NCBI GenBank assembly: GCA_030018005.1
Contig: JASEGT010000018.1
Location: forward strand, 1 to 36,483
Origin: Actinomycetota bacterium
GTDB taxonomy: Bacteria > Actinomycetota > Aquicultoria > Aquicultorales > Aquicultoraceae
Length of the DNA: 36,483 nt
Direction: 5' to 3'
The position numbers and the translations under genes were made by a program. Under the pieces are notes generated by a model. The model was not told the origin of the DNA and searched no databases. It worked only from the letters and a program-made list of their open reading frames with translations. Shown in pieces: positions 2-8,551 of the stretch (positions are counted from its first letter, which is position 1; the number at the start of each line of letters is the position of its first letter).

Positions 2-1099
2 GATTGGTGCCACGGCACCGGCGCAGGCTCTGGATACAACATCCAGATGGACAACGACGACAGCTTCACGCAAGAGTATAACGTCGGCCACACCATGGGC
101 TTCGGTATGAGTACCGGCAAATGGAGGGCGCCGGACGACACCTACCCGGCCTACACGCCTAACTATTGGCAGGGTGGTTTCTCTTGCTTCGACTGCCACA
201 GCCCGCACGCCAACCCGGCAAGAATGCTCGGCTTCAACGATGCCGGGGATGCGGTCGGCATACGCGCTGTCGTAAACAGTGCGGTAACGCCGCAGAGCGC
301 TCAAGTCCTGAACGGCAAAGTCTACGGTATCGTAAACTCCGGCGGTGACGACTGGGCCAACATACTATTAAAGGCTAACAACCCGCAGCGCACCAACAAA
401 CCGTTCTGGCTCTCAGGCAGCTGGCTTCTGATCAAGAATCCGGACCGCGAGATCGCCTCGACGACAACCGCGGCTGTTTCAAGTGGCGTATTGACGCTCG
501 GCGGCACAGAGATGGCAAATATTGTCTTCGACACACTCGGCTTGCCGGTCTTGGGTGCGGAGAGTGTTACGACGATTACCGCTGGTCAAGAGATTCCTGA
601 TTATATCACGGCTAATCTCTACGAGTTCGACAGCGCGACGTCGTATCCGGTCAACAAGATCCCAATCGACTGGGACTCCCCTATGGGTAACGCCAGAACC
701 CTGTGGAAGGTGTCCGACACTCTCGGCGTAACGGCAAACTACCTCCTGAGCAACGGCAAGCCTGCGGGCTTCCTCGGTTTCAATGTGCGCCGTTCAGAGG
801 CGCTAAGAATCTGGGAAGACTCGGGCACGGTATCGCCGGTAGACAAGTTCATAGAAAACTATGACGGCACAAGCTCGCAGGCGGACGTAGGTGCTCCGTG
901 TAACGTATGGAGCGTCAGCGACTTCTGCACCGATTGTCATGACGGTAACGCGGGCAAGCATACTGTCCAGGCGCCGCTCTTCAGTGAGGATCGCGCGTTG
1001 AGAAATAGCGCGGTTACCTCTGGCAGCGATGAGAACACGGCTAACGCTAGGGCTAACTACGACCTGGCATACGGCCACGATGTGCAGCCAAGGCACTGA
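2..1099 (+). CDS. Multiheme c-type cytochrome, upstream part (5' end outside window, ends at in-frame UGA)
   Basis: The frame is open from the left edge, so the true start and signal peptide lie outside the window. Haem-attachment motifs of the CxxCH type are visible at 185-199 (CFDCH) and 926-940 (CTDCH). The first codons read DWCH, which would be a third motif whose first Cys is just off the edge. The rest is rich in Asn, Gly, Thr and Asp and has many His residues, as in periplasmic or extracellular electron-transfer cytochromes. The frame stops at a TGA at 1097-1099 and continues without shift to 1789 with three more CxxCH motifs, so this is probably the front part of one protein (see the UGA entry). 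Likely role: extracytoplasmic electron transfer. The partner reductase cannot be told from the sequence. Confidence 0.8.
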   Translation, partial: DWCHGTGAGSGYNIQMDNDDSFTQEYNVGHTMGFGMSTGKWRAPDDTYPAYTPNYWQGGFSCFDCHSPHANPARMLGFNDAGDAVGIRAVVNSAVTPQSAQVLNGKVYGIVNSGGDDWANILLKANNPQRTNKPFWLSGSWLLIKNPDREIASTTTAAVSSGVLTLGGTEMANIVFDTLGLPVLGAESVTTITAGQEIPDYITANLYEFDSATSYPVNKIPIDWDSPMGNARTLWKVSDTLGVTANYLLSNGKPAGFLGFNVRRSEALRIWEDSGTVSPVDKFIENYDGTSSQADVGAPCNVWSVSDFCTDCHDGNAGKHTVQAPLFSEDRALRNSAVTSGSDENTANARANYDLAYGHDVQPRH

Positions 1100-1145
1100 G
1101 GCCGTATGATGGTGTTCAATCCGGAGGATGAACAAGATTTCGGCC
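1097..1145 (+). promoter_or_regulatory. In-frame UGA followed by a SECIS-like stem-loop (candidate selenocysteine site)
   Basis: The UGA (1097-1099) is the only stop between two halves of one cytochrome frame. Directly after it, GGCCG (1100-1104) can pair with CGGCC (1141-1145). Inside lies a second hairpin: TGTTCA (1113-1118) pairs with TGAACA (1129-1134), then after a bulged A, TCC (1120-1122) pairs with GGA (1126-1128), leaving the loop GGA (1123-1125). The loop begins 24 nt after the UGA and starts with G. As I recall the bacterial SECIS pattern, it needs a short stem, a small apical loop with an early G, and roughly 16-37 nt of spacing, and this hairpin fits. The alternative is a plain nonsense mutation or a sequence error at a Cys, Trp, Arg or Gly codon. 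Confidence 0.4.
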
Positions 1146-1789
1146 CGCACTGCCGCAACTGCCACCGAGGCTCAAGCAGGTGTGCAGCCTGCCACAATAC
1201 TGGTGGCGCTGTAATTGCCAGGAGTGATGCCAACCTTGCCACTGCGGCAAACAACAGCGCAAGCCCAGCGAAGTCATACTTTACAATGGCTTTGACGAGC
1301 AACGACACAACTAATACCATCGGTAGCACCAACACGACAGACACCCTCATGAGCTGGAGTGGGTGGTCAGATGCATCTGCTGCAACCATGCAAGGCTTCT
1401 TCAAGCAGTCCCGCACTACCGATTGGGCGTCCGACTGGCGGACGACAAGCAATTCTGTCGCTATGGGGCAAAGGCTTACCAGTGCTGGTGTCGCCGCCAA
1501 CTGCTCCGACGACGGCTTCAGCTGGCCGCACCGCACACTCGGCTGGAAGATGCTCAAAGACGACCTCTTCGGTCTGAACTTTGACAACAACACCTGGGTC
1601 GGCGTCGGTGAAGAGCGGTTCGATGGAACAACGACCCATACGGCGCATGACCTCGACAGTGTGTGCTTGGATTGCCACAACCCGAACGTCTGGAGGGCGA
1701 CAAACACTGGTGATGGTAATCGCCTTGACACGCCAAGCCTGTCGAGTGACGATCACAACGACGAGCTGCTCACTCGCGGCTTGCCGTAG
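1106..1789 (+). CDS. Multiheme c-type cytochrome, downstream part (same frame, after the UGA)
   Basis: This continues the frame of the upstream cytochrome segment. Coordinates are given from the first ATG after the UGA, but independent initiation is doubtful because the product would begin MMVFNPEDEQ with no signal peptide, and haem attachment needs export. CxxCH motifs lie at 1151-1165 (CRNCH), 1181-1195 (CAACH) and 1664-1678 (CLDCH), giving six for the whole visible protein. The first two are only about five residues apart, typical of packed haems. Both halves keep good coding character, which argues that the break is recent, is read through, or is an error. A strong terminator follows about 200 nt after the stop. 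Confidence 0.7.
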   Translation: MMVFNPEDEQDFGPHCRNCHRGSSRCAACHNTGGAVIARSDANLATAANNSASPAKSYFTMALTSNDTTNTIGSTNTTDTLMSWSGWSDASAATMQGFFKQSRTTDWASDWRTTSNSVAMGQRLTSAGVAANCSDDGFSWPHRTLGWKMLKDDLFGLNFDNNTWVGVGEERFDGTTTHTAHDLDSVCLDCHNPNVWRATNTGDGNRLDTPSLSSDDHNDELLTRGLP

Positions 1790-5899: not shown

Positions 5900-5916
5900 T
5901 GAGATACATTCTCAAT
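5898..5916 (+). promoter_or_regulatory. Fur-like operator, 7-5-7 inverted repeat
   Basis: ATTGAGA (5898-5904) and TCTCAAT (5910-5916) are perfect inverted arms around the 5-nt centre TACAT, 19 bp in all, the size of a Fur box. It overlaps the -10 and lies just before the fur start, which fits autoregulation. The bases differ from the classic GATAAT hexamers, so the binding protein is inferred from position. Confidence 0.6.
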
Positions 5917-5926
5917 GGAGCGTGTT

Positions 5927-6367
5927 ATGAGGCCTGAAACGCAGCAGTTTATGAAGTTTATAGAGACAAAGGGGCTGCTCTTTACGACGGAGCGTAAATC
6001 GGTCGCCGAAGAGGTCTTCTCGACTCACGACCACCTCGACGCCGAAGAAGTGCTCAAGAAACTGAAGAGCACCGGGAGCAAAGCATCCCGCGCAACGGTC
6101 TACCGCACCCTCGACCTTCTGGTCGAGAGCGGGCTGGTGGAAAAGATAGACCTCGGCGAGGGTCGCTCCGCGTATGAGCACACGGCGGGCCACCCCCACC
6201 ATGACCATCTCGTCTGCACGGTCTGCGGCGAGGTGCAGGAGTTCGAGGAGCCGCTCATCGAGCAGCTTCAAGAGTGGGCGTGTGAAAAAGCGGGCTTCAG
6301 GGCAATCGGGCACAGCCTGAACATCTATGGTTGGTGCGCCAAATGTAAGCTTGCCGTTAAAGCATAG
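5927..6367 (+). CDS. fur: Fur-family metalloregulator
   Basis: This is a Fur/PerR/Zur-type repressor of 146 residues with an N-terminal winged helix (TTERKSVAEEVF, then SRATVYRTLDLL as recognition helix) and a C-terminal dimer and metal domain. Visible metal ligands are the HPHHDHLVC stretch, CTVC, and a final WCAKC, so two CxxC pairs can hold a structural zinc. The start at 5927 is chosen because GGAG (5917-5920) lies six bases before it, while the in-frame ATG at 5915 falls inside the operator. It is directly followed by feoA and feoB, so iron-responsive control of ferrous uptake is the simplest reading. PerR or Zur specificity cannot be excluded by sequence alone. Confidence 0.88.
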   Translation: MRPETQQFMKFIETKGLLFTTERKSVAEEVFSTHDHLDAEEVLKKLKSTGSKASRATVYRTLDLLVESGLVEKIDLGEGRSAYEHTAGHPHHDHLVCTVCGEVQEFEEPLIEQLQEWACEKAGFRAIGHSLNIYGWCAKCKLAVKA

Positions 6368-6389
6368 AGAAATTTTTTTGATGAAAGAT

Positions 6390-6410
6390 TGAGATGGAGT
6401 CACAATCTCA
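6390..6410 (+). promoter_or_regulatory. Inverted repeat before feoA, half-sites like the fur operator
   Basis: TGAGAT (6390-6395) and ATCTCA (6405-6410) are inverted around 9 nt. The left arm lies within ATTGAGA (6388-6394), identical to the arm of the fur operator, but the spacing differs. It may be a second, weaker regulator site or chance. Confidence 0.3.
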
Positions 6411-6429
6411 GATAGACGAGGAGAGCACT

Positions 6430-6672
6430 ATGTGCCTGGATCAAATTAAAACCGGCGAAGAGGTAATAATCAAAGAAATCCCTGACAGTATGGCGAAGAC
6501 GCAGTTCATCCGATTCGGTATCGGCGAAGGCAGCAGCGTCATATGCCACACCAAAATCCCCTTCGGCCCGGTGGTGTTAAGAAAGAACCGTCAAGAGATC
6601 GCAATCGGCCGCGAGCTGGCCAAAACGATTACGGTCGAAAGGAGCACGCATGTCCGAGGAAAAAACGCCTGA
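6430..6672 (+). CDS. feoA: FeoA, ferrous iron transport accessory protein
   Basis: This is an 80-residue SH3-like FeoA. It has the typical pattern of an N-terminal strand, an RFGIGEGSSV turn and a C-terminal GPVVLRKNRQEIAIGRELA stretch. FeoA is a small cytoplasmic protein that acts with FeoB. The start at 6430 (MCLDQIKTGEEV) has GAGGAG upstream. An earlier ATG at 6394 in the same frame would add twelve residues with no family match and overlaps an inverted repeat. It overlaps the feoB start by 23 nt, so the two are translationally linked. Confidence 0.9.
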   Translation: MCLDQIKTGEEVIIKEIPDSMAKTQFIRFGIGEGSSVICHTKIPFGPVVLRKNRQEIAIGRELAKTITVERSTHVRGKNA

Positions 6673-8551
6673 GAAAGAACTGGGCGCCGTCAAGACTACT
6701 CATGGGGGCCACTCACATACCGGCTCCCTAGCCATAAGTCTGCCCGAGGGCTGCAAGAGAATAGTACTCGCGGGAAACCCCAATGTCGGCAAATCGGTCT
6801 TTTTCAATTACTTTTCGGGTTTGTACGTCGATGTCTCGAACTATCCGGGAACAACGATCGAAATATCACAGGCGCGCTATGGTGACGACGCCATAGTCGA
6901 CACCCCGGGAATCTACGGGGTCTCCTCCTTCAACGACGAGGAGATCGTCGCACGCGACATAATTTTAAGCGCCGACATGGTCGTAAATGTCGTCGATGCA
7001 GTCCATATCGAGCGAGACCTATTCTTGACGCTGCAGCTGATCGATATGGGCCTGCCGATGGTGGTAGCCCTCAATTTCATGGACGAAGTCGAGGAACAGG
7101 ACCTCGAGATAGATGTCGACCTCCTCTCGGACCTCCTGGGGGTGCCCGTCATACCGACGGCAGCCGTAAAGAAGCGGGGTCTGGCCGAGGTCACGGCCGC
7201 GCTGGATGACGCGCGAGAAGGCAACCAGGATCCCTTTCTCCACAAAAAGCTACACGAGATGCTGTCGCGCGTCGGCTCGCAGCCCGAGGCACTTATGGTC
7301 CTCGAAGGCGACGAGCATGTCGCCGCGCGTCATGGAATAAAACCCGGCGCCGACCGGGAAGTGATTTACGTCAGACGCCGTGAGCGGGTCAACGATATTG
7401 TCGGCCACGTCGTAAAAGAGAAGGCGCTCGTCGAGACGGTGCGGCAAAAGATGGGCCGGCTCGTCTTGAACCCGCTCACCGGTGTGCCATTCCTCGCCCT
7501 GGTTCTTTATGGACTATATCAACTGGTCGCGGTATTCATCGCGCAAATCGTCGTAGGCGTCACGGAAGAGGCCCTCATGCAGGGCTACTGGGAACCGTTT
7601 ATCCGCGGCATCGTCGAGCCGATCGTGAGCGAGAGTACGCCGCTGGGCGAGATTCTCATCGGAGAGTTCGGTGTGCTGACCATGACCGCCACCTACCTTC
7701 TGGGACTGCTTTTGCCGCTGGTGCTCGGTTTTTACCTGGCGCTGGCCTTGATGGAGGACTCGGGCTACCTGCCGAGACTGGCGACCCTGGTCGACCGAGC
7801 GCTAAACGCGATAGGCTTAAACGGCCGCGCCGTCGTCCCCCTGATATTGGGCTTCGGCTGCGTGACCATGGCAACGATTACGACGCGGCTTCTGGGGACC
7901 GAGCGCGAAAAGACCATCGCTACCGCGATATTGCAGTGGGCGATTCCCTGCTCGGCGCAGCTTGGTGTCATCACCGTTCTTTTAGCGGCAATCGGCGGAT
8001 TTTACATCCTGCTATATATAGGAATCGTCTTTTTGACCTTGGCCATTATCGGCACGGTCCTGTCGAGGGTGCTTCCGGGTAAATCGGCTCCGCTCCTCAT
8101 CGACCTGCCGCCGTTGCGCCTGCCGCGCCCTGATAACGTGGCGCGAAAAGCCGTGACCCGCACCTACTACTTCATGAAGGAAGCGATTCCGTGGTTCGCC
8201 ATCGGTGCGCTGGTAGTCTCGGTAATGAAGATCACCCACGCGCTGACCGCCTGGCAGGACGCATGGGCGCCGCTCACGACCGGCTGGCTCAAGCTTCCCA
8301 AGGAGGCGTCTACCGCCTTTGTCATGGGCCTTGTCAGACGGGACTTCGGCGCGGCGGGGCTCTTTGAGATGAACCTGGCGCCGATGGAGACGCTCGTCGC
8401 GCTGGTGACGATAACACTATTTGTGCCCTGTATCGCCTCGCTGATGATTCTTTTCAAAGAACGGGGCTGGAAGCAAGCGATTCCGATTTGGCTGGGCAGC
8501 TGGGTGCTCGCCTTCGGTATCGGCGGCATACTCGCCCAGCTGTTGCTGTAA
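6650..8551 (+). CDS. feoB: FeoB, GTP-dependent ferrous iron transporter
   Basis: The 633-residue protein has an N-terminal G domain and a C-terminal membrane part. G1 is GNPNVGKS (42-49), the G2 Thr lies in NYPGTTIE, G3 is DTPG (84-87) and G4 is NFMD. Two Gate-type hydrophobic repeats and a closing helix follow, with about eight to ten transmembrane segments, including the LALMEDSGYLPRLA and MGLVRRDFGAAGLF stretches typical of FeoB. It moves Fe(II) across the inner membrane. The N-terminus before G1 holds HGGHSHTG, a His-rich extension that might bind metal. AAAGGAG precedes the ATG. It is shorter than the E. coli type of about 770 residues but is within the family range. Confidence 0.95.
   Translation: MSEEKTPEKELGAVKTTHGGHSHTGSLAISLPEGCKRIVLAGNPNVGKSVFFNYFSGLYVDVSNYPGTTIEISQARYGDDAIVDTPGIYGVSSFNDEEIVARDIILSADMVVNVVDAVHIERDLFLTLQLIDMGLPMVVALNFMDEVEEQDLEIDVDLLSDLLGVPVIPTAAVKKRGLAEVTAALDDAREGNQDPFLHKKLHEMLSRVGSQPEALMVLEGDEHVAARHGIKPGADREVIYVRRRERVNDIVGHVVKEKALVETVRQKMGRLVLNPLTGVPFLALVLYGLYQLVAVFIAQIVVGVTEEALMQGYWEPFIRGIVEPIVSESTPLGEILIGEFGVLTMTATYLLGLLLPLVLGFYLALALMEDSGYLPRLATLVDRALNAIGLNGRAVVPLILGFGCVTMATITTRLLGTEREKTIATAILQWAIPCSAQLGVITVLLAAIGGFYILLYIGIVFLTLAIIGTVLSRVLPGKSAPLLIDLPPLRLPRPDNVARKAVTRTYYFMKEAIPWFAIGALVVSVMKITHALTAWQDAWAPLTTGWLKLPKEASTAFVMGLVRRDFGAAGLFEMNLAPMETLVALVTITLFVPCIASLMILFKERGWKQAIPIWLGSWVLAFGIGGILAQLLL

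Follow-up and report, generated by a model that had tools for sequence, protein, structure and literature searches.

A family of predicted selenocysteine-containing heptahaem cytochromes in Actinomycetota

Introduction

A 2026 review of prokaryotic selenoproteins counts 119 families or subfamilies, three of which are cytochrome-related: ExtKL, the GSU2204 family and the octahaem tetrathionate reductase-like proteins (PMC13188914). ExtKL (NF040886; GSU2937 + GSU2936) is a multihaem c-type cytochrome of Geobacter and a predicted selenoprotein (PMC1914089, PMC13188914). Its N-terminal part carries five haem motifs, its C-terminal part has no similarity to characterised proteins, and it has been reported from delta-proteobacteria (PMC1914089). 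The tetrathionate reductase family octahaem cytochrome (TIGR04315) has a GenBank-annotated Sec form (PMC13188914 Table 1), and the GSU2204 family CXXCH-containing protein (NF041027) is likewise a predicted selenoprotein (PMC13188914).

Here we describe a cytochrome gene at the start of the window, by which we mean the whole 36,483-nucleotide stretch of DNA that was analysed (contig C38, bases 1-36483). The contig belongs to a 2.19-Mb draft genome that is 99.4% complete and whose nearest named relatives are Candidatus Aquicultor (Actinomycetota). The gene (2-1789, plus strand) is a 5'-truncated copy of a predicted secreted heptahaem c-type cytochrome gene and runs in a single frame through one UGA. 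Like ExtKL it encodes a multihaem c-type cytochrome with an in-frame UGA, but its family has haems on either side of the predicted selenocysteine and is found in Actinomycetota, and NF040886 gave no match at E <= 0.01 in 29 family members. The TIGR04315 proteins resemble it in being multihaem cytochromes with a single Sec, whereas the present family has seven haems and other conserved motifs; TIGR04315 matched none of the 29 members. The GSU2204 family shares the combination of CXXCH motifs with Sec but is described as an MtrB/PioB-like outer-membrane barrel, and NF041027 also found no match in the 29 members. Weak matches to the Pfam families Paired_CXXCH_1, Cytochrome_C7 and NrfB-like secreted multihaem cytochromes lie around single CXXCH pairs; they cover haem-pair segments only, and no match spans the protein. 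A profile search against PDB chains revealed no relative with a solved structure, the best match being a nitrite reductase at E = 0.25, and no sequence relation to the solved filament cytochromes of the OmcS/OmcE/OmcZ type. Our literature search turned up no relevant work on Aquicultor cytochromes or on Sec cytochromes in Coriobacteriia. Judged by sequence comparison, the Sec/Cys heptahaem cytochrome is a new family within a known kind, the Sec-containing multihaem cytochromes.

Results

The start of the contig cuts the cytochrome gene within its second haem motif (CDWCH), so that the signal peptide and haem 1 are absent from the window copy. What remains of this motif is DWCH (2-13), which is followed on the same strand by CFDCH (185-199), CTDCH (926-940), CRNCH (1151-1165), CAACH (1181-1195) and CLDCH (1664-1678), all assigned from the sequence and the alignment of homologues. 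The first-pass annotation had described a six-haem cytochrome, a count that needs correction: the window holds five complete motifs and one cut by the contig edge, and the full-length family members have seven CXXCH motifs in nearly all cases and eight in two. Two complete orthologues from the same genus (L064:6199-8538 and L068:2147-4480), which are 81 and 83% identical to the window copy over the shared part, have seven CXXCH motifs, a hydrophobic N-terminal signal-like segment and the C-terminus RGLP. The features expected of a multihaem c-type cytochrome, a signal peptide together with several CXXCH motifs, are thus met in the complete homologues, while the window copy lacks the N-terminus. 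The UGA (1097-1099) is codon 366 of the fragment and has cytochrome sequence on either side, as had been proposed; CRNCH starts 18 residues after it, which leaves the 17 intervening codons that the same annotation gave. The gene ends in a conserved Gly-Leu-Pro (1778-1786) that appears as RGLP or KGLP at the C-termini of homologues and has no assigned function. This [RK]GLP stands directly before the stop codon in nearly all homologues of both classes, and it may be a signal for assembly, docking or processing.

Within the genus, homologues were identified by searching all six frames and reading through stops; some have exactly one internal UGA and others none. The Sec and Cys forms have the site motif YGHD-x3-RH-[U/C] in common, and the alignment set from Aquicultoria has 21 U and 19 C in this column. 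Relatives with 28-36% domain identity were found in Coriobacteriia and other Actinomycetota by a scan of named genomes, most of them again with a UGA at the same codon, in the context HDAQPRHUARQM. A class-wide search of Coriobacteriia yielded 13 near-complete homologues with one UGA each, and Cys paralogues without UGA. Of the 56 members placed in a tree, 33 have UGA at the site, 20 Cys, two His and one Thr, so that the comparison with homologues called for in the first-pass annotation returned Sec or Cys in 53 of 56. The tree requires about ten changes between U and C, at least four of them on strongly supported branches, although it is a quick tree with support by SH-aLRT only. Recurrent exchange of Sec and Cys at one column is a classical selenoprotein signature.

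These comparisons bear directly on whether the UGA could be a nonsense mutation or a sequencing error that leaves a broken gene or a truncated cytochrome. Such a reading can appeal to the contig ending inside the gene and to the hairpin after the UGA, which is not exceptional in fold energy. However, the UGA occurs at the same codon in 33 genes from some 20 separately assembled genomes, which excludes the sequencing error or private nonsense mutation that the first-pass annotation had held open, and neither UAA nor UAG was seen at this codon among the homologues examined. The codons past the UGA have omega values of 0.23-0.29, against 0.14-0.22 before it, when the window copy is compared with three Sec relatives; from these values we infer that the downstream codons are under purifying selection, as would not be expected of a broken gene. 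Together with the selenocysteine machinery described below, this makes a nonsense mutation or error scarcely credible.

Two further observations concern individual loci. Comparison of L009/L064/L094, L010 and L025 shows that dS between orthologues is two- to threefold lower before the UGA than after it, and that U and C paralogues of one genome have identical stretches just before the site; together these suggest that gene conversion occurs and could exchange the Sec and Cys alleles. At one further locus (L080, G004:C133) the copies of the Sec cytochrome seem to contain frameshifts or have an additional UGA past the site, and are possibly assembly errors or decaying copies.

The genome that holds the window contains a tRNA-Sec, which scores 72.6 bits (cut-off 47) and is also called by ARAGORN. 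SelA, full-length SelB and SelD are encoded with this tRNA-Sec on a single contig (C48 of G000; L061/L189), so that all four components that the first-pass annotation proposed to look for are present, and selD has an in-frame UGA of its own. The UGA reading would have been refuted by varied non-Cys residues at the site and a lack of machinery; the column is instead mostly U or C and the machinery is complete. Across the family, tRNA-Sec was found in 21 of the 23 genomes with a Sec cytochrome copy; the other two genomes have a completeness of 77% and 82%. Genome G005, from the same taxonomic family, lacks both tRNA-Sec and cytochromes of the Sec/Cys heptahaem family.

A SECIS-type hairpin (1113-1134, plus strand) follows the UGA. 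After 13 nt come TGTTCA (1113-1118), a bulged A (1119), TCC (1120-1122), the loop GGA (1123-1125), GGA (1126-1128) and TGAACA (1129-1134). The inner stem TGTTCA/TGAACA with a G-first loop had been predicted by the first-pass annotation and is present, with the loop starting 23 nt past the UGA and the stem extended by TCC/GGA across the bulged A. The outer GGCCG/CGGCC pair of that prediction (1100-1104/1141-1145) fared less well: it exists and forms in the predicted fold of the window gene, but it is not conserved in relatives, in which the inner hairpin and its apex are. The loop begins 18-27 nt after the UGA in the other Sec genes, and the usual description of a bacterial selenoprotein hairpin, a small G-first apical loop 16-37 nt downstream of the UGA, is satisfied.

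Folding energy by itself does not set the hairpin apart: z is -1.4, and 22 of 200 shuffled sequences matched it in stability. When fold energy is compared with that of synonymously resampled sequences, Sec and Cys genes differ only weakly (P about 0.02-0.03). A mechanical search for bSECIS stems discriminates poorly between them (mean stem 5.7 vs 4.8 bp), and Rfam gave no bacterial SECIS match. Since the folding-energy signal is weak, the case for Sec rests on comparative evidence. In 18 of 18 Aquicultoria Sec genes the loop peptide NPED is encoded by AAT-CCG-GAG-GAT, whereas of ten Cys genes that also encode NPED only one uses these codons (Fisher P = 1.4e-6; the frequency expected from codon usage is 0.058). 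This points to selection on the RNA and not on the protein. The Aquicultoria hairpin has three compensated pairs, and its covariation score was reached by 1 of 500 shuffles and lies above all slid controls. Many of the 18 Sec genes are closely related, so that the Fisher P and the counts of covarying pairs both treat the genes as more independent than they are. In Coriobacteriia, hairpins of the NPG type show 100% pairing and three compensated pairs, and a second type has another hairpin sequence in the same place, e.g. CCCATCG-GGAC-CGATGGG, for which the covariation count on its own is not significant.

The selD gene of the window genome has GGTCC-GGG-GGACC after its UGA, and thus the same UCC-GGR-GGA apex as the cytochromes. 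A search of the whole genome for UGA followed by 14-22 nt and UCCGGRGGA gave five matches, against two for a control pattern; four of the five are the window gene, the Sec paralogues on contigs C67 and C68, and selD. The remaining match (C117:15477) is spurious and was rejected as a selenoprotein, being out of frame in a stop-rich stretch.

The hairpin common to selD also speaks against two other ways of accounting for the UGA, namely readthrough with insertion of a standard residue such as Trp, or translation of the halves from two separate genes, the second restarting at ATG 1106. A restart draws some support from the 227-aa open reading frame that begins at 1106. Yet the alternative residue in homologues is Cys and not Trp, and in the Cys paralogues the Met of the supposed restart lies inside the protein. 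These paralogues are single uninterrupted genes, so that the family is not one in which the halves always stand apart, the finding by which the selenocysteine proposal could have been overturned. Both accounts appear very improbable to us.

In both Aquicultoria and Coriobacteriia the Sec cytochrome is preceded, in the same order and on the same strand, by genes for a TPR protein and an NHL beta-propeller protein. The TPR-NHL-cytochrome arrangement occurs at L064 (13951-16163), L112 (590-2776), L058, L081, L083, L110, L198-L202 and other loci, and is a conserved three-gene cluster. Both neighbours have hydrophobic segments of the membrane-spanning type and are about 30-35% identical between the classes. 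They are probably assembly or docking partners of the many members beside which they are encoded. NHL-repeat genes presumably also accompany OmcS-type filament cytochromes in Geobacter, an assumption of ours for which a literature search gave no confirmation. Downstream of the window copy, and likewise of its orthologue in G002, lies a GAF-GGDEF gene instead; whatever stood upstream of the window copy is cut off by the end of the contig. In Aquicultoria the cytochrome genes often have beside them a gene for a spermidine-synthase-like protein whose N-terminal half is hydrophobic (L064:9205-10917, L083:5620-7326). Elsewhere in the window, at 5915-8551, a Fur-family regulator gene is followed by one for a FeoB ferrous iron transporter.

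Discussion

Our results support the selenocysteine reading put forward in the first-pass annotation by the Sec/Cys column, the machinery and a hairpin conserved by sequence, covariation and synonymous codons. We put the probability that the UGA at 1097-1099 encodes selenocysteine at about 0.95, in the absence of any protein or translation data. SelB and tRNA-Sec would decode the UGA, aided by the hairpin at 1113-1134, whose UCC-GGA-GGA apex we take to be the same element as that after the selD UGA. The product would be a secreted heptahaem cytochrome.

The role of the residue is less certain. Apart from the haem motifs, two Cys positions are conserved in the family: position 366, which is U or C, and Cys501 (1502-1504), which lies in C-x-D-D-G-F-S-W-P-H-R in the window copy. 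The surrounding motif, C-x-D-[DG]-G-F-S-[WF]-P-H-R, has its Cys in every homologue that covers the site. An additional Cys, either adjacent to Cys501 or a few residues to its N-terminal side, is present in all three members without U or C at 366 and in only four others, a pattern suggesting that Cys501 has to be partnered by sulfur or selenium. These four relatives also keep Cys366, and the apparent swap of one Cys for another is thus only suggestive. Because Cys501 appears to need such a partner, a Sec-Cys redox pair beside the haems is favoured, and we lean towards Sec366 being the redox-active partner of the invariant Cys501. The proximity of the two residues remains unproven, since the AlphaFold2 models were of very low confidence (pLDDT 38.6 for a full-length orthologue with 29 rows and 43.1 for the C-terminal domain with 50 rows) and are unusable.

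An alternate role, if the Sec coding is real, is that Sec/Cys366 serves as the distal axial ligand of one of the seven haems and tunes its potential. For seven haems only four His outside the CXXCH motifs are strictly conserved (H243, H282, H564 and H693 of the orthologue), with two more nearly so, and two paralogues have His at the site, as is usual where a Cys ligand is replaced. However, further conserved His (H178, H195 and H570 in Sec members) raise the count to seven in most members, one member has Thr at the site, and the extra Cys near Cys501 in the members without Cys366 would be left unexplained. We therefore regard ligation as unlikely, though it cannot be dismissed. The residue could also be mainly structural, for example in a selenosulfide that joins the halves of the C-terminal domain and assists folding without turnover. 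The conservation of both Sec/Cys366 and Cys501 on either side of an insertion of variable length is compatible with such a bridge, and disulfides are frequent in secreted multihaem proteins. A bridge would not need costly Sec, yet Sec has been kept or regained in two classes, and a purely structural role is in our judgement quite improbable.

Under the redox-pair reading, which we prefer, Sec366 and Cys501 would form a selenol-thiol (selenosulfide) pair beside the haem cluster and exchange electrons with the haem chain. By inference, the pair would add two-electron or thiol-type chemistry at the cell surface to one-electron transfer, and the Cys paralogues would do the same chemistry with a slower or less reducing thiol pair. 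A more tentative extension, which we offer as a possibility only, is that the selenol-thiol couple, wired to a seven-haem chain on the surface of these Actinomycetota, serves for two-electron catalysis or as a site of terminal transfer, with sulfur, metalloids or metals as conceivable acceptors, and that the paralogue sets swap Sec and Cys to tune its reactivity.

Standard annotation breaks all 33 Sec genes at the UGA, and so the family is likely to have been mis-annotated as pairs of truncated cytochromes. Such mis-annotation would distort the haem counts and the inventories of extracellular electron transfer in these lineages. The family lengthens the short list of selenocysteine cytochromes and is unusual in its breadth, with more than 30 Sec genes in two classes of Actinomycetota. 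Single genomes hold sets of paralogues between which Sec and Cys have been exchanged repeatedly, and with this series one can test directly why a bacterium should pay for selenium in an electron-transfer protein. If the proposed surface couple is real, these proteins would represent a new class of selenium-dependent extracellular electron-transfer enzyme with a dedicated pair of TPR and NHL partners.
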